Shown: piece by piece, positions 782 to 64,000 of the stretch | Layout: the number at the start of each line of letters is the position of its first letter | Numbering within the stretch: the stretch's first letter is position 1 | From: Fistulifera solaris | Lineage: Eukaryota; Bacillariophyta; Bacillariophyceae; Naviculales; Stauroneidaceae | Length of the DNA stretch: 64,000 nt | Reading direction: 5' to 3' | Assembly: GCA_030295235.1 (NCBI GenBank) | Contig: AP026133.1 | Location: 806,001-870,000 of the forward strand | Translations under genes and position numbers: made by a program | Notes under the pieces: model-generated | Told to the model about the DNA's origin: nothing | Seen by the model: the letters and a program-made list of their open reading frames with translations, nothing else | Database searches by the model: none

Positions 782-1660
782 TCACTGAAACATATATCCG
801 GATATAGCAAAGTTTCCATCTCCAGCCTGTTGGTCGTATATGATTCGAGGGGATCCTCCAGCGGCTGCCGTAACCAACAATGGCAAAGATGCTCTTCTCG
901 TGGATGCGCGAAACGAGCCGATGGAGCATTTTTCCAGTCGCGTAACTTTTCCATCGGGTTCGTCATTACCGCGTCCTTCAGCCAGTTGTTGAAATCGTTG
1001 GATTTCTTATACGATGCCTCGTCTGGATTTCGCATCGCATCGAAATTGTGGAACGCAAAACCTGAGCCCAGCAGCAGTACGCCTAACATATGATGACAGG
1101 GTGAGTTTCTTGAGAACTGACGAAATTATTCACTTTTCAAATCATGACGTACCTTGGTCTTGTAGTGGAGCCAATGCATTGCCGAGTGCGAGGTGAATAT
1201 CGGGAGATAACGAGCTGTGCAAAGACACACAAACCACGGGAATATCGGCTTCCGGATACATGAGCATGAGAGGAACAAAAGCGCCATGATCAAACCCACG
1301 CTTCGCATCCAGTTGGCTTTCAATACCCTTTTCCGAAAGAAGATTTTGAATTTGTCGAGCTAGCTCTGGATTTCCGGGTGCTGGGTATTTGAATTGATAC
1401 GTTTCGGGCGGAAACCCATAATAATCAAAATACATGCTCGGCTTGGCAGAGGACGTGATCGCGATTGGGTTGGCTTCGTGGTGTGCGGAAATTACCACGA
1501 TCGCACGCGGCTTTTCGGTAATATATTCTGTAACACTTTGTTGCAAGTGATGGGCGATCATGGGCTGTCGCCCCATCAGAGGCATGGGTCCACCGCCGTG
1601 ATTCACAAATAGGGCAGGCATTCTCATCATTGGTTCATTTAATGAGCAGACTTCTGACAT
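782..1660 (-). CDS. Class III extradiol ring-cleavage dioxygenase (DODA type)
   Basis: This is a LigB-superfamily non-heme metal dioxygenase of the 4,5-DOPA/gallate-type single-domain group, which opens catecholic rings. The N-terminal part carries the metal-ligand region NHGGGPMPLMG and the SAHHEA motif. A HGAFVPL motif follows, and then GVLLLGSGFAFHN after an intron. Exon 1 ends at 1153. The intron is 1083-1152 (GTACGT donor, TTAG acceptor) and exon 2 starts at 1082 in phase. After the conserved HPREEHL the frame breaks by one base at the A-run 885-887. The next frame continues as LPLLVTAAAGG and ends with SGYMFQ at the stop 782-784. I chose the Met at 1660; in-frame Mets exist nearby upstream and downstream. 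The substrate is unknown. The break is probably a sequencing deletion, because the downstream frame is perfectly conserved for the family. Confidence 0.86.
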
Positions 1661-2075
1661 GATACAGCGGTATCGGCAATAACTGAAATAACAAGCAGCT
1701 TTTTCGTTTGATGTTTCGAACGTTTTCGCAGGTTTTTCCGGCCGCACTTCCAATCGCATCCGACGTGTTCTAGCATTCGTTATTCGATGTCATAGTATAA
1801 GTGCCGGTAAGGCATAGAATCCGTTTCGTGAATACGTAGTAGGAACAGTTTACTTCACACGCTAGTGTACAAAATCTCCTCCACAAAAGTTCACACTTGC
1901 TCGACACATTCCTATTGCCGCTGTGAAGGGTAAATAACCGATGATTCACACATCAACCAAATGAATGCTTTCACCAAACGATCTTTTGCAAGTCACTGAA
2001 CCGAATGGCTTATAAAATTATGCTGCTCGTTGCAACCACTCATCACTTGCAACACAATTGAAATATACAACGACA
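1661..2075. other. Intergenic, divergent promoters
   Basis: This lies between the minus-strand dioxygenase and the plus-strand leucine-rich copy A. No open frame is supported and no repeat is visible. It presumably holds both promoters. Confidence 0.4.
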
Positions 2076-3591
2076 ATGACCGGTCCTCTTCTCGAGCTCA
2101 TTCCCAAGGAGAACATGACGCCGCGGCAAAAGGCGCTCCTCCCGGCTATCTACAGAGGCAGACTCCCCATGTACAAGCTGTTGCGGGAACCTGCACATCT
2201 GGATGAGTTCGACTGGGAGAATAATTAAAACGTGATGCTTTGGTTCGAAAACGGATCGTTCCTTTGTTGGTTTGGGGCAGCTTTTTTCTTCGAGGAGCAC
2301 GACTACTGCTTCATGATCTCAGATATGGACGAATCTAACAAGTATTTTCTCGAGTGCGCGGTTCATGGCGAATCGGAAGCCAAGATTCTAGAAACAGTCA
2401 CGTTCCTGTGGTCACTCCAGCAACTCTGGAAGAAAGTAGGACACGGTTGGCCGTTTCGGAGTCATCGGTAGACGACACGGATTATGCTTTTGATTTTGCT
2501 TCTCTTCAACCGGAGCAGATCGCCCGTATCCTTGACGCGAATCCGTCGCGCCGAATCTTCTTCAATCAAGGACTCTGGAGTCCGGAGCAAGCCGTCGTTC
2601 TGGCGTCGCGCCCGAATACTACGGATCTGTACATTATTGACGGCTACTTTGAAACTGTCGCATTTGCATTCAAAGACGACGGGACTGCCTTTGTAAATGA
2701 GTTGGAAAAGCGAAAGTCTTCCTTCGGTACTCTTTGCATTGACGTGGACGAAGACAAGTTTCCCTTTAGCCGCGCAAGCTTTCAAACGTCTGTTTGAACT
2801 AGATGTAATCGACAAGCTCGAAATCGGTACTCGACAAGGAATTAGTGCTACTACCCTTCTCCGCAAAGGCCAAAACTCTATCCTACAAAATTCGCTCCGA
2901 CTCTATGCAGCCAACAGAGTTCGAACCTCTTGAAATTGTACCCATAGATCTTCATATCAAAATCTACGTGAATGCCGCGGACAAGGAATGGGATGCGCTT
3001 CCGGTTGCATTCCTGAATCGAGTGACTGCACTTGGTAACTTCGAGAAACTGTCCTTTCTAATCTTTCGAAGGGGTCAGAGAAGGCAGCGGTTCCATGCCA
3101 AGAATGTGGAACAAGTCGCTAAAGCATTACTTCGTGTCATTAATGCAAATCCGAACTTTACAGTATCTGAATGTGGGTGCCACCATCTATGAAGACCCAA
3201 AGAGTTGCCTTCATTGGGACGTGCAGCCTCTTTTCAATGCCGTTGCAGCACACCAGGGCATCAAGACGCTGATCGTGGGAGACTATCCGCCGGGCAATAA
3301 TCCAGCAAACTATTCCTTGCTCGAAGAATTGCTCTCGCGCAACCGAAATCTTGTTGTTCTGGATCGTAAATGCAATAGGATCTCGAATGGAACAAGCGTC
3401 GACAAGCTGTACGCACTGAACGCCTTTTACAATGGATCGGCTGCACTTGGCAAGAGACGGCAACCCTGCGTCAATCGCTGGTAGCGACGACACTGGTTGA
3501 AAGCGCATCGCGCAACTACCAGTACACTTCTTTGTTGCTGTCAAAGTATACAGATCTCCTCTATGATTTGATTCAAGGTTTAGCAGACTGA
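2076..3591 (+). pseudogene. Broken copy A of an LRR-like diatom family
   Basis: This is a paralogue of the protein at 5557-6985. The resemblance can be followed almost end to end. The N-terminus YKLLREPAHLDEF matches YKLLRKPNSLDEI, and LWFENG matches IWRDNG. The pair PFSAKAKTLSYKI and PFSAKADSLNYHI also match, as does the tail LVATTLVESAS...LLLSK with LVATALTESAS...LLLSN. Short Leu-rich segments give it a leucine-rich-repeat flavour, but no named domain is evident and the function is unknown. The reading frame is interrupted by an in-frame stop at 2226-2228. It also changes frame near 2405, 2770, 2850, 3160 and 3455. This is a much higher density than the roughly one indel per kilobase seen in the neighbouring conserved genes. 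I therefore think at least some breaks are real and this copy is a pseudogene, but sequencing errors cannot be excluded. Confidence 0.62.
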
Positions 3592-4189
3592 GATGCTTGA
3601 TGATGTCTCGCGAACCGACCGAACGCAAAACCGAAAGACGCGGACAGGAAAAGAGAGTGCATAAAACAATACCTCATATTATATAATATATTTGAGCGAT
3701 CAATCTTCAATATTTCTAAAGAGTGAAGGTTTACATTCAATATAAATCCTTGCCATTAGCCGTCGGACGTACAAATTACGACTATTTCCCGCTTGGCGAG
3801 GCAGCGGTATTGTAATACGCCCACGCGGCTTTCAAAACCTTTGAATTCCGAGCCTTGTGCCGTGAAGCGCGCGGTAGTGAGAGATGGCACCCGTTTTGTG
3901 TCAATGATTCAGCACCTTCTGAACGGTGATGTCTTCAATTTAAACTGCTTCCTCAGTAGCAACACCGAGTTTCGTGTATTGCATTAAGTTTTCCAGATAT
4001 CAGCAACGCCCTCTCAACCTGCTATAAAGGCTTTATGCGGTGGGCTGGTATGCTATCCAACGCGTACAATTATTCGCGATAGATTTTTATCTCAACGAAA
4101 TGCTTCTACGTACAACCTGCTCTCATTGCTCATTCATCAGCTTTTCTGTTCGGCTTGGTATACTGCATTTTTGAACTAGATTCAAAGAT
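3592..4189. other. Intergenic, convergent 3' ends
   Basis: About 600 bases between the broken LRR-like copy A and the end of the Mia40/GCK-type gene. It is A/T-rich near 3660-3740 (ATATTATATAATATATTT). I see no gene or RNA. Confidence 0.4.
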
Positions 4190-4951: not shown

Positions 4952-5052
4952 CTTATGAAGGATTTATCGTGGTCTCGAGGGCGAACGCAACGCAAAACAA
5001 ATACTCCCAAAACACGACGACATATCCGGGTATCCCCTTTGTTTATAAATTT

Positions 5053-5086
5053 CCCTACGGGCCTACGTGAAATGCACGTAGACATT
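5053..5086 (+). repeat. Palindrome-bearing direct repeat, copy 1
   Basis: 34 bases starting CCCTACG and ending CACGTAGACATT. It contains inverted arms TACGTG/CACGTA around a 5-base loop. It closely matches a second copy 220 bases downstream, in the same orientation. The core ACGTG resembles a bZIP/bHLH half-site, but a role is only a guess. Confidence 0.6.
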
Positions 5087-5273
5087 GGGGAACATTATTA
5101 CATCTGTTGTCTTTTTCATGCTTGGTGTTCCAACTACCAGGTAATGTCAATTCTTGCAAATCGTCTCTATGTCAGGTATGATGAGGAATGTTTTAAAATC
5201 GGATTAGTCGCTTTCGGACCCGGGAGTCGGTGAGGTTGAAATTGATGATTGTCGGGTGCTAGATCGATAAAAT

Positions 5274-5306
5274 CCCTACTGCTTACGTGAATTTCACGTA
5301 GACATT
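5274..5306 (+). repeat. Palindrome-bearing direct repeat, copy 2
   Basis: 33 bases starting CCCTACT and ending CACGTAGACATT. The palindrome is longer here (TACGTGAATTTCACGTA, 8-base arms). It lies 250 bases upstream of LRR-like copy B. Confidence 0.6.
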
Positions 5307-7145: not shown

Positions 7146-8911
7146 TTAACACTGTATGCTGCACTGCTCCTTTACTTCGCTTTGATTCCACCCAAAAATT
7201 GTATCGACAAGTTCCGTCGCTAATGAGTTCACCACCGGTCGTCCTCCCTTATTCAAATAAGTACTGACAGGATCGCGACTAAAGGCTACAATCATGTTAT
7301 GCCCACGAGGCCATCGTAATATTTCTTCCCCAAATAAAGGATGTGTCGATAGTGCGGCGGCAAGGTCACTCGATGAGACCACATTTCCTTTTTGTTTTAG
7401 TAAGTTAACGGGATCGCTCCGTGTCTCACCGCCCACATTTACGTCATCCTTGTCTTCCTGCTTTACAGTTTCCAACGTATCAGATTCATCTGTACTGACT
7501 GTTCTATTTTTTCGGATCAAAACGGTTGGTAGCGATATCTTCGGGACGGAAGGCAGGGGAATGCTTGGAATCATATTCCGCACATCGATGAACACTTTCT
7601 TCCACCCAAGAGAATCCAAAGATCGCGACATTTCAACGAGTTCGTCGTTTTCGTCGTCACCCACCGAGTTATTCGAGTCTTTATCGACCACGTGTTGAGC
7701 AAGAGTATGTAAAGTTGCAATGACAAGCCCATTGTCATCGACTACTAGTTTGTCGGCATCATCGCCGTCTTGTACGAAATGATGCGGGTAAGAGGAGGAT
7801 TCTGATAGAAAAGCAGCCGTTCTTACTGGCACTGGAAAATCGGTGGCGTATGCATTCGCGTAAGCAATTCGTTTGCGAAATGCTCGGAGTGGTCGCAAGA
7901 ATTCGTCCGTTGTGGCCATGCGCTTCAGCAAATCGTTCACCCGGAATAGATCTCTGCCTGTTTCACCCAAAGCATGAGCAACGCCAATTTCTGCCGTGCG
8001 AGGAATGGGAAAAAATGTATGACCGGCAATACCGAGATGAGGCGTTGCGGTGGTGCAGAACACGTTTAAATGCAAAGCATATTTGCCGTCCAGAATGAGT
8101 ACGGAGGACGTACTATCCTGTGGGTCACACCATGCGCTTAACTTGGCGATAGCATAACGAGAGTAGATTCCTCCAAGACTGTTACCTATTATTGATATTG
8201 TAACGTTCTGTAGATTGTCGGGCGAAGCGAAAGGACGTCTCTTGCTCATTTCTTCGCGTATTGTTGTAATCATCTCTTCGACCAGTCGCTCTCCACCGTT
8301 CGCCACACCGTCATCTGTTTTCCGCTCATTGCAGACTACCGCATGAACTACGAGTTCGTGTACGGCACACTCGAGTTCCGCGGCCCGTTCCTCTGCCGTC
8401 AAATTACTCAATCGTTTGATCCTTTCTCTTTTTCGTTTCCTGTTGACTTCTTTGGCCACACGTTCCATTTTATGCTGCAAATAACTCAAATCGCGCGAAT
8501 ATCCGCGATGTCCGTGTACGAGAAAGCAAAATGTGTGACCGTCGGTCTTTGTTCGGGAGAAGAAAACTCACTGCTTTCAGAGAAATCACTTTCATCTTCG
8601 TCATCCTCGCCCATGGAAGCATATACATCATCCTCGTCGTTCTCGTCAACTTCGTCCGCCAACGAAAATGGCGGAGCCAGATCCTTCCACCAATCCTCAC
8701 TACTCAATGTAGAACTCCGTAATATCGAAACACGTTGTTGTGATTTCGTCAGAACGAATTGCGAAAACCAGGTCATGCCGTTGACACTGTGACTGGGTAA
8801 AAACCCCATATACAATCCCAACAGCAATAGAAACACCATGATGACGATATTGTTGGCACACAAGGCGTTGATAGAGTCGGTTTGGTACCAACTCAACAGG
8901 AAAGTGTCCAT
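7146..8911 (-). CDS. DUF676-type lipase with N-terminal membrane anchor
   Basis: A serine esterase of the ROG1/DUF676 alpha-beta hydrolase group. From the N-terminus it has one hydrophobic helix (IVIMVFLLLLGLYMGFL), a Ser/Asp/Glu-rich linker, and the oxyanion-region motif FLVHGHRGYSRDLSYLQ. Next come the CNERKTDDGV block, the nucleophile elbow GNSLGG (Ser) and FCTTATPHLG. A C-terminal RWPRGHNMIVAFSRD carries the likely catalytic His. The linker frame and the lipase frame join if one base is restored in the A-run 8523-8525 (+ strand). The HG motif is only read that way, so the break is almost certainly a sequencing deletion. I start at the Met at 8911, just before the membrane helix; an earlier in-frame start at 9016 exists. 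The lipid substrate is unknown. Confidence 0.8.
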
Positions 8912-9434: not shown

Positions 9435-10920
9435 ATGGGATCCGGATTGTCGAAACACGAAGACGAAATGAAATCGCCCTCGGCAAAGAATGTAACGGCG
9501 GAAGATGCCAATCGTATCACCACAAATCTAGCGGACGATGACGAGGAAAGCAAATGCCCCATGAAATTAAGTGATGGATCTTATCGTTATGATTGGGGAG
9601 CTTTGTTTCGAAAAGATTTTCCTCATGGTCCGAATGGGAGTCGTCCGATTACACCATCCGAACCAGTCACACAAACGACGACGACGACGACGACGACGAC
9701 TCAAGAGAATGCGACATCGGGCTGTCCTGTCAAACATCAAGAATACAATGTGTATTCACAACCTCTTGATCCTACCAACAACATGCCTAAAGTTGCGAAT
9801 CAATTACCCGCCCCGAATCAGACGAGACCGATCTCTACCAAGCGTGTGGCTAGTTCAATTCTCAAGGTACGTGAGGACATGACAGAGCTCTCTGTGTTTA
9901 CTGCTGTGACGAGAATGACTCACAGCTATCTTACTACTGGATTCAGGGAGGAGCCAAAGAAGGAACAACTTGGACGTATCCGTCTCCACAGATGTTCTAC
10001 AATGCTTTAGCACGAAAAGGAAAGCTAAGTGAAGAGAACGAAGAGGAGGAAATGATGGAAACGGTGGTGGCTTTGCACAATGACATGAACGAAAAGTCGT
10101 GGAAGAAAGTGTTGCAATGGGAAGCTGTAGTTTTCGACAAAGACGAAGATGCGATCGCCAAAGAAACCAAATTACTCAAATTTCAAGGGAGACCTACCGA
10201 TTTGAGTCCTAAAGCATGGTTCAAACATTATGTCTTGGGACATCCTCTGCCTTTTGATCGACACGATTGGGTTGTATTGCGTCCCGATGGTAGCACCGTG
10301 CGATACATTTTGGACTATTACTACAACGAACCAGACGAGTCAAATAGCAACCCGTCAAGCTGCGGCCCTTCTTCGCAGACGTTGTTGGTCGACGTCCGCC
10401 CCGCTCTGGATGGTATTGCTCCATTATGGCATCGCTGTGCCTTCATGCCATGGGCTCGGCATATCTCGCAATCTACTTCATTTACTCCGTTACCCATGTT
10501 ACCGACAAGTGGTCTGAAATCACAAGTCAGTGAATCTGTACAGGTTTGGCAAAGCATTCAGGCTTCGGTGGCGCAATCCAAATCGGGCCAGCCTGTTGGG
10601 AATACGATTGCGCCCATTGGCGAACAAGAAGCACGAAAGCTGATCGAAGATTTTTCCACAGCCACGCAAAATGCCAGAAACAACGCGCTGCACTGAATCA
10701 GTGTGCTTCCGAAGGAGATTGCACTCGCGCTACGATGGATTTAACAATTGGGATGGGGCAGATTCTTTGTCCGCTGCAGCATCAAACATTACTTCAGGTT
10801 TTGCAGCAGAATGACGACAGCACCATTGAAGCAGCTCTAGAACGCGTCAGTGAATGCGTCACTTTGAAGAGCCAACAGCATGCCGTGGCCAAACAACAAC
10901 ATCCCAAGCTATTTTCGTAG
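9435..10920 (+). CDS. HCCS: Cytochrome c heme lyase with C-terminal Cys extension
   Basis: Holocytochrome c synthase attaches heme to the CXXCH of apocytochromes c and c1 in the mitochondrial intermembrane space. Exon 1 is 9435-9866 and encodes two Cys-Pro heme-regulatory motifs (KCPMK and GCPVKH) and a nine-Thr run. The intron is 9867-9946 (GTACGT...TTCAG). Exon 2 opens with GGAKEGTTWTYPSPQMFYNAL, a family hallmark (AKEGTTW, PSPQMFYNAL), and continues through the conserved RHDWVVLR and LLVDVRPALD. Animal and yeast enzymes end soon after this point. Here another ~145 residues follow, including a C-x9-C-x5-C-x15-C stretch (QKQRAALNQ between the first two Cys). The last part is in another frame, recovered by one extra A in the run 10668-10671. 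Without it the frame stops at 10696. Confidence 0.9.
9675..9700 (+). repeat. (ACG)n microsatellite in HCCS
   Basis: Eight to nine ACG units inside exon 1 encode a run of nine Thr between the two Cys-Pro motifs. It is likely length-polymorphic. Confidence 0.85.
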
Positions 10921-11340: not shown

Positions 11341-12784
11341 ATGACATTAACTGTCGTGGTAGGCTCTTCCGGATCCGGAAAGACAACCTTCTTGAACGAC
11401 GTGCACAAGTCGCACAAGTGCATCTACATTCGTCAATATCACAACATCCGTCCCTACGTAACGGTTAGCAAGATCCCAAACTTTGATCCGACGCGTCTAC
11501 CGTTTTGGGATATCTATGAACGCGAAGAAACTGCTGCGACGATCAAGGCTGGTGGAACAATGGCGGGAGAATTTACGGCCGGTCTTTCTGGAGGTCAACG
11601 AAAACTCCTGCTCTTTGAATTGGTGGTCCAGCGCGTTGCTTCTCAGAGCAATCTTTTGATTGCACTAGACGAACCATTTGCAGGTGTCACTGACGATTAT
11701 GTGCCTTTCATTGTTAAGCGCTTGAATGAGTTGCGACAGAATCACGAAATTCTCTTGGTCACAAACGATCACGTCGACACACTCAAAGAAATGGCCGACA
11801 ACACCATCACCGTCAGTGCGATCGATCGCACTAAAGTCCAAGTAAACAAAATCGAGGGCGTTAGTCGAGAAAAAACCATTCTTGCCCTAGCGATTGGAGA
11901 CGCTTATGAGTACAAGGGCTCTTGGGACGATCTCCGATTCTTCCTGGACGTTGAAGTTCTTAACAACGGTGCATTACTCGGTGTGGCGATGTTCACACTT
12001 TTGTCTTCGGTCTCTTCCTTGCTACCTTCTGGGACTCCAGGGAGGAAAATGCTGCGCTTGTTCTGGTGGCAGGTGGTATTGTTGCATACTTTTGTTTGAA
12101 TCCTTACTTGTTATCGCTTGCTGACTGGCGCAACTTTATGGGCGAAGAAGCTGAAGCTCTTTTGCACGCCTCAAAAGACATGAACAATTTCCTAAAGTCT
12201 TCGTTGACCATGTTTTTGATCTTAATTGTCTCAGTTGTGCAGTTTGGAATCACGAATGCAGTGATCAATGGCCTTGAGAGTTCTTCCTTCTGGGTGGCCA
12301 TGCTGATGGATAGTGCTAGCATGACATTTCCATTCATTTGCTTCGGTCTTTATACGAAGCTTCCATTCCAGGCTGTTGAGATCATTGCTAGCATGCCCTT
12401 CTTGTTCATGATCTTCTTTTCTACAACGTTCTCACCTGGGTCTGGTGTTGCCGTGTTGAAGGAGTTGCGATACTTATTTGCACGATTCTACTTTTGGTGC
12501 ATGATCCCAGGAATTCGTGATGACATGGAAAACTGTCCCAGCACCGACGAGAAGAATCTGCTGTACATGATTTTATCGGCTTTGATCGGTGTTGTGCTCT
12601 TTTGACTGTCATGGGAGTAAGCTCATTGCTGCGTTCCAAGAAAGTCAAGAAAATGAGCTCGAAGAAAAATGCTTTGAAGGATGACGAGTTCCGTGATTTG
12701 CAGATTGAACTCTATGGTGAGAAAGCCATGGATATTCAGAGCACGAACCATTCCACAAGCTCGAAAAAGACCGAGGGTGTCTAG
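11341..12784 (+). CDS. Compact ABCG-like half transporter
   Basis: An ATP-driven membrane exporter of the ABCG/White layout (nucleotide-binding domain first, then membrane domain). Walker A (GSSGSGKTT) sits at residues ~8-16, directly after the start. The usual ~50-residue lead-in of ABCG proteins is therefore missing or on an unseen exon. The signature LSGGQRK and Walker B LLIALDEPFAG follow, then about five membrane segments (e.g. ENAALVLVAGGIVAYF, SLTMFLILIVSVVQF, IIASMPFLFMIFF). A charged C-terminal tail ends in KTEGV. The frame breaks twice: near 11990, where GALLGVAM must continue in a frame reading HTFVFGLFLATFWDS, and at the T4 run 12600-12603, after which LTVMGVSSLL continues. Both are single-base losses and are likely errors. 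The substrate is unknown. Confidence 0.78.
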
Positions 12785-45384: not shown

Positions 45385-47237
45385 ATGAGTTATTATAGTG
45401 CCGTATGCATCTCTCCTTTGCTTTCTTGTCCCTTAGAAGACATTTTCATCCATTACGAGAGGGAACATGATGATCAACAGTTTCTAAGCTCGCTGCAACG
45501 CAAGATCTTGTCGCTAGACAAACACGACGACGAGGATCCAGAAAATGTGATTCCGACACTGCTGATCCGCCCCAGCGACGGCTCTTCAGGCTTGTTTGCT
45601 TACCACAATCCTACAATTAATCGAACCAATCCACCCAATATTCGAGCGACTCGTTTGGCGATGGCTTGTGGCTTGTTTGCGATGCGGTTTCATGGTACCG
45701 TCCTCATCTTTCAACGACCACAGAAAAAAGAAGCTTTCACTGCGGCACAATTGGAAATGGCGTGTTGTGGTAGCCCTGACTTACGGTCCAGCATTTTGTC
45801 TTCGTTAGGAATGAAGAATAGTAATGCTCCTAGATGGCTACTCCAGGCTGCACAGAGCAACTATCACGATCAGGCAGTGGTGCAAAAACTAGCGTCTGTC
45901 ATGCAAAATCGCAACGGAAGTAGTGAAGAAGAGGAAGAAAGTGATGATGAAGTACAAGTTACTAGAGCGAAGCAACAGCCTTGCGGTGACAGAGAACGCA
46001 GGGAGTTTGTTAGTAGCGTACCTTTGTGTTTGCATTGTCGACGACCCGCGAAGGAGCTTTGCCCTGGTTGTCACGGCGTTTACTTTTGCAACGATATGTG
46101 TCGACAAGAAGGGTAAGGCTATTGCTGATCCTTGTTTTCACGCTTTTCCAAAATGATGTTTTCTAACCAAGTGGTGTGCGCGCCTCGAAGGTGGCCGCAT
46201 GAGTGTTTTTGTGCAACGTTCCGTTTGTACACGGGGCGGCGTATCGAGCTGTCCACATTTGATCACATTAATGAATGGGCCAGAAGGCTTGTTGATCGGG
46301 AATTCCAGTTGTCGGTAAATCCTTATGAGCAGTTTCTAGCCGAACATGGCATTACGCGAGAAACTTGTTCCTCCTGGTGGAGGACGGAAATGGACGGCTG
46401 GGCCGGTGGATCCAGTGAAAGTGCCCAAGCAGTCGATGTAACCAAACGAAAGACATACGAAGAAGGCTTCTACCCAGTTACATTTGAGCTTCCAAGAGAA
46501 GAGTCTTTGAACGATAGTATCTACACCACATGGAGAAACAAGAATGAGCTTGGCTTTTGCGACTGCAGTCTTGGCAAGATTACTACCTCCTGAGGGGAAT
46601 CCCCGAATCTAGTATTGTGGCTTTGCTGATGACCTTTCCTCTGACGTTGTACAATCTCATTGTAGAATATGGCCAAGTACCATGTATGGTTGCTCAAATG
46701 CTTGATCGACCATTGCGAATTCACATTGTTGGTGCGGAAAAGGAACTTAATTTTCTGGACATTTTCCGAGAAGTTGTATTTCTGCTTCCCCACGATGTCT
46801 CGCTTCAGCTGGTTTTTGTGGTGCGACAAGATATGATTCCAGAAAAATTGAAATCGAACATGGCGAACGAGCTTGAAATACCCTTCCACGAGCGTCTCGT
46901 AGTTACTTTGGTTGCCGGAACCTATGGCGATTCACTGGATCCTGATTTCGACTGTCATGGTTCACCAGACATCGTAGTCGCCTTCAATGCCGGCTTGTTC
47001 GCATATCCCAGTTGGAGAAATGTTGTGGAATATCTCCATCGGAAGCCATCCGTAATCGGGATGTTTACCGATTATAACGAAATGAGCGGCGCCCAGTGTG
47101 CCAGCCTTGGAGATAGTCGAGAATCCGTTCAGATCAACCCGTTCCGTCAACCTCGTGCAATGCCTGTTTACAGTATGAACTTGCCTCAATTCTCCAATGG
47201 TTTCATTTATGTCTTCAATCCTCAAACATTGGACTAA
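45385..47237 (+). CDS. MYND zinc-finger protein (MSS51/ZMYND-like)
   Basis: A ~590-aa protein. Exon 1 is 45385-46112, the intron about 46113-46190 (GTAAGG...CGAAG) and exon 2 starts 46191. The splice rebuilds the MYND finger CLHCRRPAKELCPGCHGVYF followed by CNDMCRQEGWPHECFC, giving the C-x2-C, C-x2-C, C-x3-C and H-x-C zinc ligands. The C-terminal half is of the MSS51/ZMYND15-17 type: LRIHIVGAEKELNFL, LVAGTYGDSLDPDF, PDIVVAFNAGLFAYPSW. One base is lost at the T4 run 46555-46558 (ELGFLRLQSWQDYYLLRG across it). The N-terminal 200 residues are unassigned. MYND fingers bind proline-rich partners, and the specific role is unknown. It ends 80 bases from the convergent Top6B gene. Confidence 0.8.
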
Positions 47238-47317: not shown

Positions 47318-49358
47318 CTAATGTGTTGTTTCCGGAGAAGATGTTGACGACACCACGTTGAGAATAGCTTGGATTGGCCGAAAAGTGAAGAGGACGTCGA
47401 GCACATCATACTGGGGGTCGTCAAGATTGTACAGTGGCACTAAAAATAATGGTGTAGCTTTCTCAGCAACGATGATTTGTTCGTCTTGTTGCGGTTGATG
47501 ATCTCGGATAGCTTGATTGAGAGCCCTTGTTATCAACGCCTCATTCATTTCACCGCTCTTTAACTTGTGAATCATTTGGTTGGAACGTTGTGGGTCGAGT
47601 CGAAGTCGCTTGGAGGGCGAGGCCGTCGATGTGTACTCGTCGCCATGTATGTCGCCTTCTTCTCGACGCTTACGCATTCCTTCAAGTATCCCGTAAAGCG
47701 ATCGACTTACATCTGGTATGTACTTACGGAGTCGATTGGACCGCTCTTTCGCATCCTTAAGAGCGGTCCGTTTCACCAAACGAACTTTGAGTTGCTGACA
47801 ACAAGACTGTATCGCGCGTTTTACGGATTGCTGGATTTCGGTAGCATCATCTCCGATGTATTCCTTCGATGTCCCTTTGAACGGTATTTTGGTACTGACG
47901 ATGCTCACATAGACGCCAATTTTGTCCCGCTTGAAATCAATCTTGTAAGAAGACCATTTGATTTTGCTATTGGCGACGCGCGTTGATACATCCGCGCCGC
48001 TCTCAAACAATAAGGGAATCCGATTGGCGAATCGTACAACTGTAATGCCTTCTTTCATTGTTTTGCCTCCCAGACTGACAGCGGCTTCCACCAAAAAGGA
48101 TGCCCTTCGAAAGCCGCTGGCTTGTCACGAGCCGTGGCAATCAAATCCGGTTTTTGTACGAACTGAATACCCAGATTGAGATTGTATTCTCCCAACGGAC
48201 TCAAGCAACTTCCATCGGGCGCTTTGAAAATTTCCACGCGTTTCAGTAGCTGCACCAACCGAGTAATGTGTGCATCGGTCAATTCTCGCGGATCCATCTC
48301 TTCGTCCACTTCGTTCAACTCTCCGATCAGACGCTTGGCCATCGCCGGACTCACCGAAGCCAGCTCCGTGGACAAGAATTTAACCAGATTCTTGGCGCGT
48401 GTCATTTGAATCAATTGCTGCACAATGATATTGTTGACCGAGGAGGGATGATGCTTGACGGTAGCCGCCGGTGGAGGCATCTGTTCGGAACGACGCTGGT
48501 ATTGCAGTTGTAGATTTCGTTGCGGTTCGGAAATATTCTCGTAATCAAGTTGCAAATACGCGTACGGCGTGATGATCGCTAGTTGCTGAATGTACTGGAC
48601 GATTCTGGATCGATAGGTCGTCCAATTTCCCGCAATCAACAGTTCCATCCGCGTTCCAATGAAGTTTTCCTTATTGGCGTATTTCCTGTGTTCCATGATG
48701 ATGGGTTCATTCTTGGAAATATCAATATCGAGTACGCAAACACTGCAGTGCGTGGGAATGTCCGTCCCCGAGCGTCGATGTGCCGTCTGAATCCGAACCG
48801 GCTGTCCACTCGACTTTTTACTCCAAATCAGAGCCATCTTGGCCCCCAATCCGAATTTTCCGCGCGTCTGCCGCACACCGTATTTGCTCCCCGACAATAC
48901 TTTTCCGAGCAAATGGGGGATCGCGTTGTGTTCCATGCCGCAGCCATTGTCTTGCACGACAATACGAAAATAAGCATCCTGTGAGGCCGTTTTGCGTTTC
49001 TTTGTGGACGATTCGTTCGTTTCTTGCGTGAGTTGTGGTTCGGTGGGTGGCTTTTTGGGAGTCTTGGTTTTCTTTTGAAAGAGTTCTTGATCATTCGCGT
49101 TCTTCCGCGGCGATTCGGCAAGTCCGGCGACTTTATTGAATTCTTTTGCGTGTATTCTGTGACATGAACGGATATTTCCGGCAGAATATTGGCTGATTCG
49201 CAAGCATCGAGTGAGTTTTCCACCAGTTCACGGATGCTCGTATACAAGGATTTGCCGAGATTGTCAAAGCCCGCAATCGCTTGATGTTCAGCGAAGAATT
49301 CGGCGGGGCTTTTTTGTATCTGGACTTCACTTGGTGAAGAATCTTTCGATTTCGGCAT
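47318..49358 (-). CDS. TOP6B: DNA topoisomerase VI subunit B
   Basis: The ATPase subunit of type IIB topoisomerase, which with a Spo11-like A subunit relaxes and decatenates DNA. In plants it serves endoreduplication. The GHKL ATPase starts AEFFAEHQAIAGFDNLGKSL, with the N-box ELVENSLDACE, DNGCGMEHN (the G1 box) and TRGKFGLGAKMALIWSKK. An H2TH-like region follows, then a transducer with IKWSSYKIDFKR. A ~45-residue Lys/Thr-rich insert sits between the N-box strand and DNGCGM. The frame is broken at the T4 run 49144-49147 (YTQKEFNKVAGLAES across it) and the A5 run 48093-48097 (HPFLVEAAVSLGGK across it), both single-base losses. I chose Met 49358 (MPKSKDSS); the Met at 49412 is less likely. The A subunit is not in this window. 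Confidence 0.9.
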
Positions 49359-49854: not shown

Positions 49855-52800
49855 ATGCCAGGCTTTCAGCAGCAGCGCAAAGTCTTCGGGCAGTCGATGC
49901 AAAAGAAAACTTCGTATCAACGTCAGTTTGGTGGTAGCACCTCGTATCGATCAGGAGATACCGATGATGCCGCTGCCAAGGCTGCGTTAGCGGCGGAACG
50001 AAGAAAGAGGAAGCAAATTGCTGCCGAAAATGTGGAGAAAGCCTTTGGGATTGATCAGTTTGTCATTGATAAGGAAAAATCGCAACCGAGGCGTGGTTGG
50101 CTTTACAATGTTCTTCCGACGACGGTACGTACGCGATGGACGCTGACAGAGATTTATCTCTTTTGTTTAAAAACGCAGCAACTGGTTCCATTTCTCATCT
50201 GTTTCGCTCGCCTTTTTAACAACACAGGTGCCCGCGACCGACGGATCGATCGGTGAACGCTCGGGTCTTGATTTATATTTTCTATCGGAATCAGGCAAAG
50301 ACAACTTCAAAGCAACCGTTCTTTATCGTCCTTTCTTTTACATTCTGCCTGATCTAGAGGAAATAACACAGGCCGATATTGCCTTGGAGTTGCTCACGTC
50401 GACGTTGATGCGTCAGTTCGAATTGCACAGCGTCAACGTCGTTCATCGCATCGATTTAGACCAGCCCAATCATTTGGCCCCCAAAAACAGACACGGACGA
50501 CCGTTGTTGCAACTCGTTTTCGACACGGTGAGTCAGCTCACTCAAGTTCGCGATCAACTACGCTCGATCGTGGAAAAGAATGCCCAGAGATCCAAGGCGG
50601 TTGTTTCTTTCCAAATGAACGACGCGTCGCTGCACGACGAAGTCCTCAAAGATCCGCTTTCTCTCTTGGGTGATTTGAGAGAATACGATGTACCGTATGT
50701 GGTGCGCGTTTGCATCGATCGCTCGATTCGTGCCGGAACCTGGTACACTGTGCAAGCCGATGAAGAGTATGGTGTCGAGTTGGTCGATGCCGACAAGGAG
50801 CATAAAGCTGACCCGGTCTTTCTGGCCTTTGACATCGAATGTACGAAAGACCCTCTGAAGTTTCCCAATGCGGAAAGAGATACTATCTTTATGATTTCGT
50901 ACATGGTCCGTACCTCCAGGGGCAGTCAAGGCTACCTGATTGTCAGTCGAGATATTGTCGGTCAAGACATTGTAGATTTCGAATACACACCGGATAAGCA
51001 GTATCCTGGACCCTTTCAGATCTTTAATGAGCCCGATGAGAGAGCATTGCTACAGCGTTTCTTTCCGAATACCGAAAGCACGCGCCCCAGATTGTCGTCA
51101 CCTATAACGGTGACTTTTTCGATTGGCCGTTCGTGGAGACTCGCGCAGCCTACCATGGTTTCAATATCTTTCAAGAAATTGGAGTCGAGCGCATTCAGGA
51201 CGAATTTCGCGGTTTAAGTTGTGTTCATTTGGATGCGTTCCATTGGGTACAGAGAGATTCGTACCTGCCTCAAGGTGCGCAAGGCTTGAAGGCAGTGACC
51301 CGTTATAAGCTGGGATATGACCCCGTGGAAGTGGACCCAGAGGACATGGTCGAGTTCGCGAGACGTAAGCCGGTTCACATGGCTACGTATTCGGTCTCCG
51401 ATGCGGTGGCTACCTACTACTTGTACGAAAAGTATGTCCATTTGTTCATTTTCTCCTTGTGCACGATCATTCCCATGGGACCGGAGGACGTCCTGCGCAA
51501 AGGCAGCGGCACTTTGTGCGAAACTCTCTTAATGACTCAAGCTACGTCGAAGAATATCTTGTGCCCCAATAAGCAAACGGATCCCCTGGCCAAGTTCCAT
51601 CAGGGGCATTTATTGGAAAGTGAAACGTACATTGGTGGCAAAGTAGAGTGTTTGGAAACGGGTGTATATCGGAGTGATATTGAGTATGATTTTGATCTGA
51701 AGCCTAGCGCTTTCCAGCAACTGATTGACAATATTGACCGTGACTTGGTGTTTGCAATTGAAGTCGAGGGAGGAAAGAAAAAAAGAAGATTTTGTCAACT
51801 ATGATGAGGTATGTCATTCACGGTGGTTGGCAAGAGCACTTCACGGGTTCTTCATCTAACGCACTCTTTTACAGATCCGGGGCAAGATCGTTAAGGAGCT
51901 GGAGAAACTTCGCGATCGACCTAAACGCAAAGAAACGCCGTATATTTACCACTTGGACGTCGGCGCCATGTACCCGAATATCATTTTGAGTAATCGTCTA
52001 CAGCCAGGTGCTATCGTTGACGACGCTACGTGTGCAGCTTGTGATTTCAATCAATCCAAGAACAATTGTAAACGCCGCATGCCATGGATTTGGCGCGGTG
52101 ACTACAACCCCGCAACGAAAATGGAGTATGATCGTACGAAAGATCAACTGTCCAGGGAACTCTTTCAAGACGGCGTGCCTTTCTCCCAGTTACCGGACAG
52201 CGAGCAAGCAGCCTTAGTTGCAAGTCGCCTGAAGACTTACGCGAATAAGGCTTACAAAAAAACCAAAATCACCGAAGAGAAACTGCGCGAAGACGTCGTC
52301 TGTATGAGGGAGAACGATTTCTACGTCGACACAGTTCGTCAGTTCCGAGACCGACGATACGAGTATAAAGCTTTGAAGAAGACGTGGAGCAAAAAATCGG
52401 AAAACGCGACAGACCCTGCAACGAAGAAAGAATGCGAGGATCGTTTGCTAGTCTATGACTCGCTCCAGGTGGCGCACAAGTGCATTTTGAACAGTTTTTA
52501 CGGGTATGTGATGCGAAAAGGAGCGCGCTGGAGATCTATGGAAATGGCTGGGATAGTTACAAAGAATGGAGCAGATATTATCACACAGGCGCGTCGACTT
52601 GTGGAGCAGATCGGGCGGCCTCTTGAGTTGGACACCGACGGTATCTGGTGCATCTTGCCTGGCTCATTCCCTGATGTCTATTCTTTCCTCGCGGAGGATG
52701 GATCAAAGTTGAAACTTGAATATCCATGTGTTATGTTGAACGCGGCATGCCAAGATGAGTTTACCAATCATCAGTACCAAGTCTTGGTTGATCCAGAGAG

Positions 52801-55800
52801 AGGACTTTATGAGACGCGGAGTGAATGTTCAATTTTCTTCGAAGTCGACGGACCGTACCGATGCATGGTACTGCCAGCAAGCACTGAAGAAGGCAAGTTG
52901 CTGAAAAAGCGCTATGCCGTCTTCAACTTCGACGGGTCTTTAGCAGAACTCAAGGGATTTGAATTGAAGCGACGTGGTGAGCTGGAGCTTATCAAAACGT
53001 TTCAATCACAAGTGTTTGAGCGCTTCCTTGACGGCGGATCATTAAAAGAGTGTTACGACAGCGTAGCCGACGTTGCCAACCATTGGATCGACGTTATTGA
53101 GACTAGAGGTGAAAATTTAGATGACGATGAGCTTGTCGACCTTATCAGCGAAAACCGCAACATGAGTCGTCAATTGGAGGACTATGGTGCTCAAAAGGAA
53201 CATCACAAACAACTGCTCGTCGTCTTGCTGAGTTCTTGGGTGCCGAGCTGATCCGGGACAAGGGACTCAATTGTAAGTTCATCGTTTCTGAGCAGCCATA
53301 TGGAGCTCCTGTCACCGAGCGAGCTGTGCCGACAGCGATTTGGAAAGCGCCACCCAACGTAGCGCAAAGATACCTCAGGAAGTGGCTGAAATCACCAGGG
53401 CTTGAAGGCGACGCTCTCGATATTCGAAATGTTCTTGACTGGGATTATTACTTGGATAGACTCGGCAAGACAATCCAAAAATTATAACCATTCCAGCAGC
53501 ACTACAAAATATTCCCAATCCTGTCCCGCGTCTCGAGCACCCTGCCTGGCTTGGCTCCAAAGTTAATCAAATGAACGACAAGCACAAACAGCAAAGCATC
53601 ACAGGAATGCTGGTGAAGCGGTCTGAACGTAGCCCACTAGTCGACATCGAAGACATAGGCACCAGAGGAGGGAATCCAAAGCTTCCAATTGTCCACAAAC
53701 GGGTTCGAAATAGATTTTCACGAGAAAACGATAATGATGCGACGCTGGAAAAAGAGTCGAGCTGTCTAAAGAAAACTTTGAAGTCTGGCTAAGACAGAAG
53801 AAAGCATCGTGGCGAAAGGGTCGAAAGGAACGTCGCTCACAACGTACCTTGTCGAGTGATCGCGACATGGAAAAACGAGCCAAGACAGCAACCAGTATTG
53901 AAGGATACATCCGCGAAGCCGCGCTTTCGAAGGCACGACGGGAGTGGCAGATCGTAGAAGTGCGAGAAATGACATCTTATGAATCCTTGTCGTCTGGCTC
54001 TGGTGAATTCGTCGTATGGGCTATGGTCGGCACTGACTCTCTCCAGAAAATTATTGTTTCAGTTCCACGAACTGTTTACATATCTTCAAGAACTGAGTTA
54101 ACTCATTCTTCCACCGATATCACACGCTTTCGTCGAGTTGAGCGCCATCTTCCCCATTGCAAAGCAGCTCAATTCCTCTACGAAGCCTCTATGCCCGAGC
54201 ATGTTTACAAAAAAAAAAGACGTGGGTGGATTCTCTCTATCCAATCGACCCCAGCGTCGAAAAAAGGCCACGCCATTGAAAGTGTATACCAGTCAAAGAA
54301 TCCGTCCATGTTACGCTTACTCTCCGAGCTAGGCCACGTAGTTCGACTGGAGAGCTCACAAGACGCGATCAACAAAAAGTCGTACACAATTGAAGACTTC
54401 AAACGAGTGGACAAGCTTTCAGGTGGCGACTATCTGAATGCCCAACTCTCCTACCGACGTTTGTTTCTTTACGTGCGAATCAATGCGAGTCTAAAAACTG
54501 GACTCATTGCTTTGTTTGACCTCAAAGGAGGAAGCGGTTCACTTGGGAAGGAGACCAAGAATGGTGACATCACACGACCAACCGATGCCGGGCAAGGCAA
54601 TTTCGACATCAGCTCGTTTTGCAACTTGTGGATAGTGAAACCAGGATCTGGTCGAAAAGCGCAGCGCAACGTTTCATTGAAGGAATGCAAGAACATGTTC
54701 AAGGAGCTCGTTGAGTCTATTCAAAACTCCGCTGGACTCGACTCGGACTATAGTTGCATTTTCCCCGAAAGCCATATCGAAGTTAGCAACTTGTATTTCG
54801 TGGACAACGAAGAACAAGCTCTCGCCGGTGCCAATGAAGTAATTTCCTCTGCTGTCAAAAGCAGTACAGGGCCTGCGTTTGTATTGCTCAATTGTAGCAA
54901 GGAGCATAGGCAACTCCGTCGAATAATGACTTCTTTCAATTCGTGTCCCGTGCTGAACATGCCTTTCCCTCCCGGCCCAGCGCACAACCCAGCTATTGCA
55001 TCACTTCCAGCTCTAAACTGGGAGCAGCCACTCATTCAGCTGTCTTTGGAAGCGTACTTGTTCATGGTTGTAATCTCGTTCCCGAAAAGGGTTTCGTACG
55101 CGCGCTATGGGCAAGTCCCTTTGGGAAACCTTGGCACAGATGAGAACATAACTTTGTTCGACGCAGGTATGACGCGCCTTTTACAGAAAAATTCCGCTCT
55201 TTCATGGGCTAGCTCAATTCCTGGAAAACCTGATCTCGGGGAAAATTTTCTTCCATCATTTAACGGCGGCACATTTGCCCAAAACGAGACCGGCACTGTC
55301 CTCTATAGCTTAGATGATGCATGGGGAGATGAAGATGATCTTATTAGCCCTACCATCCGCCGCGCCGGAGTGTATAGATCGGTTTGCGTGGACATCGATG
55401 TGCAGGATTTGGCAATCGCCGCTTTATCCGACATGTCTGTTGCTATCGCTTCGATTGGCCCAGGAGTTGTTCAGCAAGACTCGATTCTGGGACAGAAGCC
55501 TGAGTCACCGACGTCCGTCACTGCTTTACAGGAAAGTTTTCAAACCACAAAAGCCACGGGTCCTCTAGGTGATGAAATGTCCACTTCGATTTCGCTGTCA
55601 ATGATTCGTTCCATGGTCAGCAACTGGCTTCGAGACGCATTTCACGACGGTAGTCTCGTTGCAGATGAACTCTTGCACCATATTTATCGACTCATATCAG
55701 ATCCTAATACGCTTCTTCACGATCCTGCTCTTCACAGAGTAGTGCATGCTCTCATGAAATCAACGTTTTTGAGGGTTTTGGGTGAGCTTCAACGACTAGG

Positions 55801-56949
55801 TTGTGCCATCATATACGCCTCTTTCAATCGCATCACTGTCGCAACCAACAAGATTGATCTCGCGGATGCCGAGGAGTATGTCGACTTCGTGATAAACACA
55901 GCCAAGAACAAGTCGGAAGAAGGCAGTGTACTCTCCAAAGTCTCGCTTCGTCCCAAGCAATTTCATACTCATTACATCTTTCTGAACGAGTTCAATTTCG
56001 GAACTATACATTTGGAGAGAGTACCCGCAGACGAAATGGAACCTGACGCCGAACTGGTGTTTATTGAAGACGGGGGTCGCATGCTATCATTACTTCTGTG
56101 GTAACTGGCTGGAGCCTGACAAATTACTTGGGCAGCCATCTGGCCCAGGAATACTTCAAAGCCATCATTGCTCGATTTTCTCGCGACGTTTTGAAGAAGC
56201 AGATGGAGCTACATACCCACGGAAACTCTGGTTCGTCTTCCTTGCTTACCGGAGAACGTAACGAACTTTCCGCCTTCCAAAAGACGTTGATCGAGAGGCA
56301 CTTTTCATCTTACTTGACGCGTGCAGTCGATGAGATCATGAAAGAAGGACCAGACGACAAGGTCTTGCCACCGCTAGTAAACGACGACACTGCGCGCTCC
56401 AGTATGCCCGCGCTTGAGTTTGTGAAGAACCTCATTGCTGTTTTGGAACTCGATCCCGAGACAACGAAAGAAGTGCACTCTTTGAAACGAAGTCTGCTGG
56501 CTCAAGTGGATGTACCCGAGTATGCCCGAGTCGCGCAATGGAAGGATCCATGTCCCACTCTCATTCTCCCGGATGTGTTTTGCAGCGAATGCCAAGACAG
56601 TCGAGATGTAAATCTCTGTTATGTTCCACCCCGTGATGAAGAGGAAAACACCTGGAATCATGAATGGGCCTGTGAAGATTGTGGGACACCGTACGATGTG
56701 GTCGCAATGGAACACCGTCTCGTGCAGATGCTGCAAAAGAAAGTAATGCGCTATCAACTCCAAGACTTGCGTTTGCGCAAGACGCGCCGTGTCTCCACTT
56801 GGGCTTTGCGTTCGGATGACTGCGAGACCGACATACATTCCGATCAAACAATGAACGAACTGAAGCTCGTGCGAAATCTCGCCGAGTTGCATCAACTCGA
56901 AACGCTCAATGAAATTACCACCTTTTTGCTTGAGAGTTTCGAAGTTTAG
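49855..56949 (+). CDS. POLE: DNA polymerase epsilon catalytic subunit
   Basis: The leading-strand replicase. Exons are 49855-50124, 50228-51808 and from 51875 on, with introns GTACGT...CACAG and GTATGT...TTACAG. Exonuclease motifs are [28 protein letters not shown] and [15 protein letters not shown]. Polymerase motifs are [35 protein letters not shown] and [13 protein letters not shown]. The CysX-type [17 protein letters not shown] fits the Fe-S motif of this enzyme. The inactive C-terminal half ends with the CysA zinc motif (CSECQ...CEDCG). The CysB motif looks incomplete, with RLRK where a Cys is expected. The frame is interrupted six times: 51085-51088, 53197-53198, 53477-53481, 53772-53775 and 56072-56076 (each one base lost), and 51778-51784 (one gained). 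Conserved sequence continues directly across each. I start at the Met of MPGFQQQRK. Confidence 0.95.
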
Positions 56950-57884: not shown

Positions 57885-60379
57885 ATGTTAGAAACAATCA
57901 AACACTTGATCGAAGAGCGGCTTCCAGAGTTGGACGCCGACATTACAGACTACGTGCTTGGCATACTAGAAGACGGCTTGCCAGAAGATGTGGAGAGTTT
58001 TCTTTCTCCGTTGTGTGGTGATGACGATGAGACCAAGGAAATTCTTTTGCAGGAAATTCATCAGTTGAGTCAGCCAGAATCTGACAGTGCTACTTTAGAA
58101 ATATCAAACAGAAGACCGGTCAAGCTCAAAGATTGTTTCCAAGATGAAGAAGCAGCTCTCGCACAATCGTTTGAAAAGGCCAGTGTTACCGACAAAGAAA
58201 TAAATGCAACAACGACACCCGAACGTCACAATCGAAAAAGCAAAGCAAACAAACAGACACATCACTCTGAAAATCAGGAATCAACATCATCGTTTGTGGA
58301 AGATAATGCCAGCGCATGGGAGCAAACTGTACAAGAAGAAGGAACATGGGGCGGACGAGGCAAAGGAGGTAGAGGAGAATACGCCGGAGCCGTAAATTCG
58401 GTCAAGAGTAATATCCATCTCTCCGACGTATCGATTTCTTTAGACAACGGAATGGATCTACTGCGTAATTCCACCATGGATATTATGCGCGGTCATCGAT
58501 ACGGGTACGTTGCAACAGGTATAGTTTCCGTTGCGTTGCCAAGCTATGGGTTGCTCTTTATCATCAATCGCCCCTCTAACACTCTTTACTAATTGACACG
58601 CTGCTAGATTACTGGGAAGGAACGGTGTTGGCAAGTCAACGCTACTGCGTAGGCTGGTGCAAAAGTCTATTCCAGGCATGCCGCATGATATGCGAATCAT
58701 TCTGGTACAGCAACAAATTGAGGGATCAGAGCTGTCGGCTTTACAGACATTAGTGGATGCAGATATAGATCGCTTACAATTACTGGAAGAGCAGGAGGAA
58801 ATGGAGACTAAACTTGAGTCGGAGGAGTGCACTTCAGACGAGTTGGCTCACGTAGCAGAGCGTCTCGGGGAAATTGCGGATGAACTCGACGCCATTCGAG
58901 CCGATCAAGCAGAAGAGCGCGCGGAACAAATACTGAAAGGTTTACAATTCACAGATGACATGATCCATGGGAAAACTAGTCAATTGTCTGGTGGATGGAG
59001 AATGAGACTCGCATTAGCGCGATCCCTCTTTGTGCCGTGTCACTTGCTTCTTTTGGATGAATGCACCAATCACCTTGATTTGCACGGAATGAGCTGGTTG
59101 ATTGAATATTTGCAAAAGAAGTCGGATCGGACGTTGATTGTGGTATCACACGATTCGAGCTTCCTAGACGCCGTCTGTACAGATATCGTTGTTTTACAGC
59201 ACCAACGACTTACCTATCATGTGGGGAACTATTCCGAATATATTCGTCAGCAGAGTGAAAGAGCGACACGAGAAAGTCAAATTCTTGACGCCGCAGCGCG
59301 TCAGCGCATAAAGCCGAGGCTTTTGTTCAAAAGCAGCAGGCGAACCGCAAATCGACCGACCCCAACAAACAAAGGCAGGCCAAGATGATCAAAGAGAAAA
59401 AGATGGATCGAATAGGAAACTACCGCGAAGATGGAAAGCGCTACAAGCTACGGTCGCTAAAAACCCTCGACGAGTCAAGTGTGCGACTTGCTCAAAAGGT
59501 CACTGTCGAAGTGGATGACCCTCTTATTGAAATAAAATTCCCTAATCCAGTGTGGCCTCCAGGCGTCGCTCCTGGTGATGACATTGTACGAATAGAAGAT
59601 CTTTCCTTTGGTTTCACCGACGAGAAACTGCTTCTGGATAGCGTGACTTTAAGCTTGACGCGTGGTAGCAAGGTGGCGTTGGTCGGCAATAATGGATCGG
59701 GCAAGTCCTCTTTAGTAAAACTCATAACAGGAGACATCGACAGTGCTTCGGCAAAGGGACGCTTTGGAAATACCCAACTCTCACCATGGGACATGTTTGC
59801 CAGTACTCTGTCGAGGAGCTCGAAAGATATGCGAGTATGACAGTCGTTGAATATGCGGAAGAGATCCTTAGTAAGTCAAAAGCCGCAATCAAAGTCATGA
59901 AGAAAGGTTCGGGAAATATTCGTCAGTATTTGGGTGCTTTTGGTCTCGGTGGAAGTCACGCGCTCCAAGCTATTGGCAAACTTTCGGGAGGGGGAGCGAA
60001 TGCGCCTTTGTTTTGCCACTGTATTGGCAGATGAACCACAACTTCTGTTGCTCGACGAGTCTACGAATCACGTGGATATTGAAACACTCGAGTCTCTTTC
60101 CCATGCGTTGAACACGTTTGAAGGTAGCGTCCTTATGGTCTCGCACAACCAAGCTTTCCTTAGTGGCTTCTGCAAAGAGCTTTGGGTGTTGGCTGATGGC
60201 AAGATCGATGTGATGCACAGTGACACATCATCGTTTGACGAAATTTTTCCGAGTACAGGCATCGGATATCATCGTCTGCAAATGGAACTTCGAGTGGCAG
60301 ACGCAAAGAAAAGGCAAAGATGGCGAAACAGGCGAAGCAACAACAAATGGGAACCAAGCAAAATACCGCGCTTTTGTAG
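57885..60379 (+). CDS. ABCF (GCN20-type) soluble ABC ATPase
   Basis: A twin-ATPase without membrane segments, of the family acting on ribosomes. Exon 1 is 57885-58504, the intron 58505-58607 (GTACGT...TGCTAG) and exon 2 from 58608. The N-terminal ~200 residues have a GCN20-like helical region and a Gly-rich loop (WGGRGKGGRGEY). Domain 1 has LLGRNGVGKSTLL, LSGGWRMRLALARSLF and LLLLDECTNHLDL; domain 2 has LVGNNGSGKSSLV, LSGGERMRLCF and LLLLDESTNHVDI. The frame is interrupted near 59305-59308, 59768-59770 and 60244-60248 (one base lost each), and at the G5 run 59990-59994 (one gained). The last repair gives a Lys/Gln-rich C-terminus ending TALL at 60377-60379; otherwise the frame runs on to 60515. 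It resembles the GCN20/ABCF3 type in which translation-control partners bind the N-terminus. Confidence 0.88.
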
Positions 60380-61963: not shown

Positions 61964-63555
61964 CCCGTGTTTTCCCCAAGACGTTTAGGCTTTCGGTTCT
62001 ACTCCAATTGGACGCTGCCCTGGCCGAGTGCTTGTTTATCGGTTCGAGAGAGGCATCGAAACACGATTCGAAAGAAAAGCGGAAGTGACAATCTCCATTC
62101 AAACCATTAAGCCCAAAGAAACCGAATGAATAGAGCTTCTGAGTTGCTCACAATGGGCCTGATGGACTCACAATGGGCCTGATGGACACTTTACCAAGAC
62201 GTTGGGTGATTTTCTATGTATTGACGCTTTGGTGATTCGATATCGGCGCTTTTTTCTCTGCTCTTTGTTGGTGATAGGACGGTAGCACTTCCTTCCGTGC
62301 ATTGGGAAAGAAATCAATATGCAACGTTGAAACGCAATAAAAAGTCTAAGCGAAGTCGGGAAAACATGGTCTTGCCGAAGCGGTCGAATGGTCAGGACGT
62401 TTCGAACGAAGATCCTAGTTTGATTTTGATGGGTGCACCAGCAATTAATGGGTCCCTTCCGAAGCGGGTACGATCTGCCGCACACACTTTGTGAGAAAGA
62501 ACTATTGAGTCCATGTAGAATTGATTTATTCATATATCTAAGCTTTTCTACTGTATAACGTAGTGTGTCCTTTGTCGAGTTGCTACAGTTTGACTTGCCA
62601 TTTTTGTGTCTCCTCACTCCAACAGGTAACCATCAATCGTTTGAAGTGCATGTAAGGATCCCTCGCGGACACCGCGTCTTCCTACAATGTTCGATGGTCA
62701 CTTTAACAAAACTATGGCCAATAAAAGATGGATGAGTAGATTAGCACGAGTATCGTTCCAACCTTGTTGAGCAAGAACCTTCCATGTAGGAAAAGTGAAA
62801 GAATGGGTATGCAAGCTTCGGACCTGCATCAGTTCGCGCTTCTCCTTATAATCACACGTCTAATCAGCTTTGTTTGTTCTGACTTTCAGCGCCCACATTC
62901 AATACGCATAACTGGAAAGTTAATTTGGTTGTCAATTTGAAATCTACACGGCTTTCTATACAAACCCGATAACTAGGAAGTGCCTTCCTTACCCCAGTGT
63001 GGTTTTTATCATGCTCCAGGAGTACAGCACGATGGAGCGGCGTCTTGCTACAGTACATCGAGTCGAAGCCAAGGGTGTACTGATTTAAAAGATTACGATG
63101 ACAAGCTTTCATATAAACCATAGTTTGGAACTTGAGCGTACCGTACGTTCGAAACCTATGCGACGTCCAAACAAAGGATATCTTTTACAACGTACCAGGT
63201 ACCCCGTATTATTTTGCGTTCGCACAAACTTGATTTTTTTTTGAAACTTGTCCTTTTATAGTATTACTTTCTCTACTTGTTAATGACGGAGAAACAGTTG
63301 AGTTGTATCTGGTACACTCAGACGGAAAACGGAAGATTGCGAAGGAGCCGCATTAAGAACACGGTCAGTAGATAGAAAGACCCGCACCATCGAACCAAAG
63401 CGGATGAGAGCTAAGGGGCAACGCGCTAGGGCATGCAAAATAAATGATCACGTACAAGAAACGCATCGTCGAGCATTAAGGAACACATCAAGCCAGGTAG
63501 AACAGTCAACATCCTTCGTAAAAGAAGTCATTCGCTCGTAAAAACAATAGCAAGA
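61964..63555. other. Gene-poor stretch
   Basis: About 1.6 kb with short frames on both strands. A minus-strand frame at 62864-63121 contains SKTPLHRAVLLEHDKNH, which recalls one ankyrin repeat, but no start or neighbours support a gene. A 20-bp tandem duplication is listed separately. Confidence 0.35.
62147..62186 (+). repeat. Perfect 2 x 20-bp tandem duplication
   Basis: The unit CTCACAATGGGCCTGATGGA occurs twice head-to-tail without mismatch. It is recent, or an assembly artefact, and no function is suggested. Confidence 0.9.
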
Positions 63556-64000
63556 ATGGCCGGTGATTCCACCTCGTCATTCATCGAGGACCTCGTTCAC
63601 TCACTCGCACATCACTTTATTGTGGAAAAGATCCGCCCTACGAAGGGATAGATACATGCTTGCAAGAAGATCCTTGGTGTGCAACCTGTCACAAGAGACC
63701 AGAAAGCGGTCTCTTGTGCTGCTCGCGTTGTCATACGGCTTGGTATTGTAATAGTAGTTGTCAGAAAGCTCACTACAAATCCGGACATCGCGAGATATGC
63801 TTGTCCGTTGCCAGAGATATAAAGAGCTTAGAAGAGGAGATTATTCCATTACTCAACACTCCCTTTGGCGACGACCCAGCACCACACAATATATTTGAAA
63901 CAGAAATCGGAATGTTTAGCGAGGGACCTGAAGCACATCGCTACATGGTGGCGCGCCGTGAGTTGGTCGAATCCTATTTTCAGGCAGCATTTGACGTCGA
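63556..64000 (+). CDS. MYND zinc-finger protein, 3' end beyond the window
   Basis: Starts MAGDSTSSFIEDLVHSLAHH and runs off the right edge. After PTKG the frame must shift by one base at the G3 run 63645-63647. The next frame then reads IDTCLQEDPWCATCHKRPES and LLCCSRCHTAWYCNSSCQKA, ending HYKSGHREICL. These give a complete MYND finger: C-x2-C, C-x2-C, C-x3-C, H-x3-C. A helical region (SLEEEIIPLLNTPFGDDPAP) and HRYMVARRELVESYFQAAFD follow to the end. MYND fingers mediate protein binding, and the partner is unknown. Without the repair the first frame stops after 31 codons. The MYND core is open from 63651 to the window end in one frame, which strongly supports the gene. Confidence 0.72.

Follow-up and report, generated by a model that had tools for sequence, protein, structure and literature searches.

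The 64-kb window (the whole stretch of DNA analysed) carries 22 single-base frame jumps, 18 losses and 4 gains, in 12 genes. The jumps do not look like a real genomic feature; they look like uncorrected sequencing errors. Sequencing or assembly error, which we infer to stem from incompletely polished long reads, is very probably their best explanation, because losses predominate, the jumps sit at short runs, they are spread evenly over unrelated genes (POLE included) and slippery heptamers stay at background. The preliminary description had already named sequencing error as the simplest cause, and the same observations support it. The frame jumps it reported are largely real, but its figure of at least 29 indels (26 losses and 3 gains) falls to 22 and its gain/loss split also had to be corrected, because some introns had been read as indels.

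The window contains eukaryotic genes with introns on both strands and may come from a diatom or another stramenopile. Genes were identified by Pfam scans of the gene regions in each frame with stops masked (at 2081-7000, two of the three frames were scanned). The families found were DNA polymerase epsilon, topoisomerase VI B, ABC-F protein, cytochrome heme lyase, LigB/DODA, DUF676 lipase, DMAP1, 7TM receptor, Na/H exchanger, SET, cyclase-PDE, GH16 and MSS51; a tRNA scan of the window found none. Frame changes were located with a codon-usage model trained on the long ORFs of the window. Over the whole window it called 34 same-strand changes: 20 are kept jumps, 4 fit introns (9907, 13760, 26564 and 50239) and 10 are others. 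The latter comprise two in the first MYND gene at an in-frame stop, one with a competing intron (33596), one tentative call (44095), four in an LRR gene at 2-3.5 kb and two in its neighbour. The two kept jumps beyond these 20, in DODA and DMAP1, were added by eye and homology. As a control, the same codon method was run on 50 kb of E. coli K-12, where it called 19 frame changes: one is intergenic, and the other 18 lie at most 48 nt inside annotated CDS and represent gene borders. The kept jumps, together with one tentative and uncounted jump, are as follows.

785..1006, minus strand: DODA/LigB dioxygenase, one-base loss (LigB in two frames, intron between)
8489..8567, minus strand: DUF676 lipase, one-base loss (codon model, frames, DUF676 downstream; an intron reading of 179 nt is also possible)
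10534..10696, plus strand: HCCS tail past the lyase domain, one-base loss (codon model, frames, no intron fits; no homology at the jump)
11964..12099, plus strand: ABCG-like transporter, one-base loss (codon model, frames, no intron fits)
12524..12605, plus strand: ABCG-like transporter, one-base loss near the end (codon model, frames, no intron fits)
20221..20249, minus strand: DMAP1, one-base gain in a run of five, 20221-20225 (human DMAP1 in both frames; no intron fits)
23680..23954, plus strand: 7TM receptor (Peripla_BP_4 and 7tm_3), one-base gain (old-frame 7tm_3 ends at about 23790; codon-model jump at 23783)
29571..29709, minus strand: SET protein, one-base loss (weak SET pieces in two frames; codon model)
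29242..29269, minus strand: SET protein, second one-base loss (codon model; ORF overlap of 28 bases; an intron reading of 137 nt is also possible)
41569..41635, minus strand: cyclase-PDE, one-base loss before the PDE domain (new-frame PDEase_I from about 41596; codon model; intron candidates cut into the PDEase_I match)
44085..44131, minus strand: cyclase N-terminal region, tentative +1 jump, uncounted (codon model alone; no intron fits; interval without a run longer than 2)
46548..46593, plus strand: first MYND/MSS51 gene, one-base loss (codon model, MSS51_C downstream, no intron fits)
48058..48124, minus strand: TOP6B transducer, one-base loss (Topo-VIb_trans in two frames, same register; no intron fits)
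48831..49227, minus strand: TOP6B linker, one-base loss (codon model, HATPase downstream, no intron fits)
51055..51088, plus strand: POLE exonuclease domain, one-base loss (DNA_pol_B_exo1 continues in register across the two frames)
51740..51804, plus strand: POLE, one-base gain in a run of seven, 51778-51784 (codon model, frames, no intron fits)
53191..53200, plus strand: POLE thumb, one-base loss (Pfam thumb and human POLE both continue in register across the two frames)
53478..53484, plus strand: POLE thumb end, one-base loss in a run of five, 53477-53481 (human POLE aligned in two frames, offset by one base)
53738..53792, plus strand: POLE, one-base loss (codon model, frames, no intron fits)
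56068..56104, plus strand: POLE, one-base loss (DUF1744 ahead of the jump and zf_DPOE_2 behind it lie in different frames; codon model)
59289..59388, plus strand: ABCF, one-base loss (ABC-F matched on both sides, not flush; codon model; no intron fits)
59693..59840, plus strand: ABCF, second one-base loss (codon model; ABC_tran 1-51 upstream)
59901..60031, plus strand: ABCF, one-base gain in a run of five, 59990-59994 (ABC_tran 107-137 and ABCF1 in the new frame; codon model)

The one-base register is exact on both sides by tools for 4 of the 22 jumps, and these four (POLE exonuclease, thumb and thumb end, and the TOP6B transducer) are exact one-base losses: past each jump the match carries on in register in a frame one base earlier. 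At the POLE thumb, the interval defined by codon usage begins just 3' of 53191..53200. The register of DMAP1 is weaker, its 5' piece matching with E=0.21 and one gap, and the remaining kept jumps have one-sided homology or codon usage alone. In the second ABCF domain, ABC_tran 1-51 and 107-137 fall in pieces that flank a middle piece in another frame; the middle piece gave no match in the searches run, a PDB search among them. The old-frame match of DODA stops at 886, at the run 885-887, the new-frame piece had no database match of its own (none in a PDB search), and the codon-only interval, 769-781, disagrees with the location by homology, which counts against error. The piece of the 7TM receptor downstream of its jump gave no 7tm_3 match.

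Gene by gene, the counts given in the preliminary description are upheld for SET (2), TOP6B (2) and POLE (6), and the jumps in DODA, the lipase, the 7TM receptor and PDE (one each) and in ABCG (two) were likewise kept. ABCF retains three of four. Of two jumps claimed for DMAP1 the first stands, while the second, seen by eye and uncalled by the codon model, is without support. The first MYND gene keeps one jump; the second, also said to be broken, was dropped, since a single frame holds its complete finger and the codon model made no call there. The three named gains (23777-23781, 51778-51784 and 59990-59994) stay gains in the 7TM receptor, POLE and ABCF, whereas the run at 20221-20225 in DMAP1, taken earlier for a loss, is a gain according to the human DMAP1 match in both frames. 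All eight of the coordinates named carry the run described, 23777 being one base off.

The ratio of losses to gains, 18:4 (binomial P 0.004), shows the loss excess expected of long-read homopolymer errors. In the six best-bounded intervals, which were picked after the sequence had been viewed and in which the run counted for the POLE exonuclease consists of C and sits at the edge, a run of at least 4 is present in 6 of 6, where 1.7 would be expected (none of 5000 draws). Among 27 codon-only intervals, including five jumps later dropped or tentative, 20 have a run of at least 4 (14.7 expected, P 0.027) and 10 a run of at least 5 (4.6 expected, P 0.011). Runs of at least 3 occur in 25 of the 27 against 25.1 by chance, a point against error. 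Accordingly, of the earlier placement of the indels in homopolymers of 3-7, the concentration holds for runs of at least 4 and not for runs of 3. Two further observations speak against error: all four gains sit in runs, and the window is short of A/T runs of 6 and 7 bases (35 versus 54 and 7 versus 17.5) but not of 8-10, a pattern that shows no clear truncation of runs in general. The rate, based on hand estimates of gene length, is about 0.55 jumps per coding kb, or about Q32.6, and the unevenness of the 22 jumps over 23 genes (LRR genes left out) is within chance (P 0.90).

If the assembly consensus had retained errors of one base in the length of short single-letter runs, most of them losses, these would shift the reading frame inside genes. 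The Kastor report (PMC12007338) describes long-read indel errors as chiefly false deletions that follow runs of four to five, about twice as frequent for A/T as for G/C, with insertions not tied to particular homopolymers. The Polypolish report (PMC8812927) describes leftover errors that are mostly homopolymer indels causing frameshifts, and places simulated assemblies without polishing at Q23.7 to Q32.3. The jumps resemble long-read-only assembly errors as described in the two reports in being single-base, mostly losses, placed at short runs and disruptive to genes whatever their function. They differ in that the gains here are all in runs; moreover, the cited studies are mostly bacterial, and the errors here are deduced from a consensus sequence.

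It is unlikely that ordinary introns misread as indels account for some of the jumps. All seven suspected introns fit the frame, including two that probably explain jumps claimed earlier, namely the exchanger jump and the main HCCS jump, which is separate from the HCCS tail jump that was kept.

9867..9946, plus strand: probable HCCS intron (GTACGT..CAG restores the frame; two further acceptors are compatible as well)
26564..26612, plus strand: probable exchanger intron (GTAAGT..CAG restores the frame)

A jump in the gene at 33 kb was dropped as well, a 68-nt intron fitting there, and so was one at 14.9 kb that had been seen by eye and was uncalled by the codon model. The intron test was a search for frame-fitting candidates and covered only donors of the pattern searched. 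Against introns, 12 of the 22 kept jumps have no such candidate, and in six more (three in POLE, PDE, the third ABCF and the first SET) the only candidates would excise sequence that matches the family. A candidate remains for four: the lipase (179 nt), the second SET (137 nt), the 7TM receptor (118 nt) and the second ABCF (92 nt). Codon usage and known motifs were the grounds for keeping these four.

That the jumps stem from real pseudogenes, or from a duplicated segment in decay, is very unlikely. Pseudogenes also have broken frames, and one LRR-type gene fits them.

2046..3600, plus strand: LRR-type gene, five frame changes and an in-frame TAA, uncounted (tblastn against its neighbour; rate test)

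This gene, at 2.1-3.6 kb, may be a true pseudogene because it has five frame changes, a number above that expected at the background rate (P 0.0016), and an in-frame stop. It forms a tandem with a paralogue (2046-3600 and 5539-6982), the second copy having two model-called frame changes near 6550-6593. An in-frame stop near 46113 in the first MYND gene may also point to decay; a GTAAGG donor accompanies it in 46104-46170, and no short frame-fitting intron was found for the frame pair tested. The remaining genes, unlike pseudogenes, are without clear nonsense codons. At a ratio of 8-10 substitutions to each indel, some 8-10 nonsense codons should have appeared, yet the pieces of the other 11 genes, selected as open frames to begin with, stay open from one jump to the next. 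The sequence of POLE, TOP6B and ABCF is also conserved. Apart from the LRR-type gene, the split genes are no evidence of dead genes or unusual biology.

Genome-wide programmed ribosomal frameshifting or RNA editing is extremely improbable: 18 of the 22 jumps go in one direction, at short runs, but both directions occur, no shared motif was seen, and in-phase slippery heptamers number 2 against 1.95 expected in 22 loss intervals, four of them later dropped (one heptamer in the first SET loss interval, one in the TOP6B linker interval). Euplotes-type programmed frameshifting is +1 and occurs at stop codons; there, as here, many nuclear genes need a frame change, whereas the direction here is mostly opposite and no motif is present. 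It is hardly conceivable that nuclear genes are truly one base short or long at short runs and rely on widespread slippage of the ribosome or on RNA-level correction, acting in either direction with no slippery heptamer involved.

Gene calls made on this record will be broken at roughly one place for every 1.8 coding kb. Calls of 'pseudogene', 'short protein' or 'lost gene' made from the record need accurate reads first, and frame breaks should be checked against introns before they are counted as indels.

Between the GH16 and cyclase-PDE genes lies an inverted repeat (40113-40306) with 51-base arms that are 94% alike. It folds far better than its shuffles (z -9.8) and is possibly a small foldback element.
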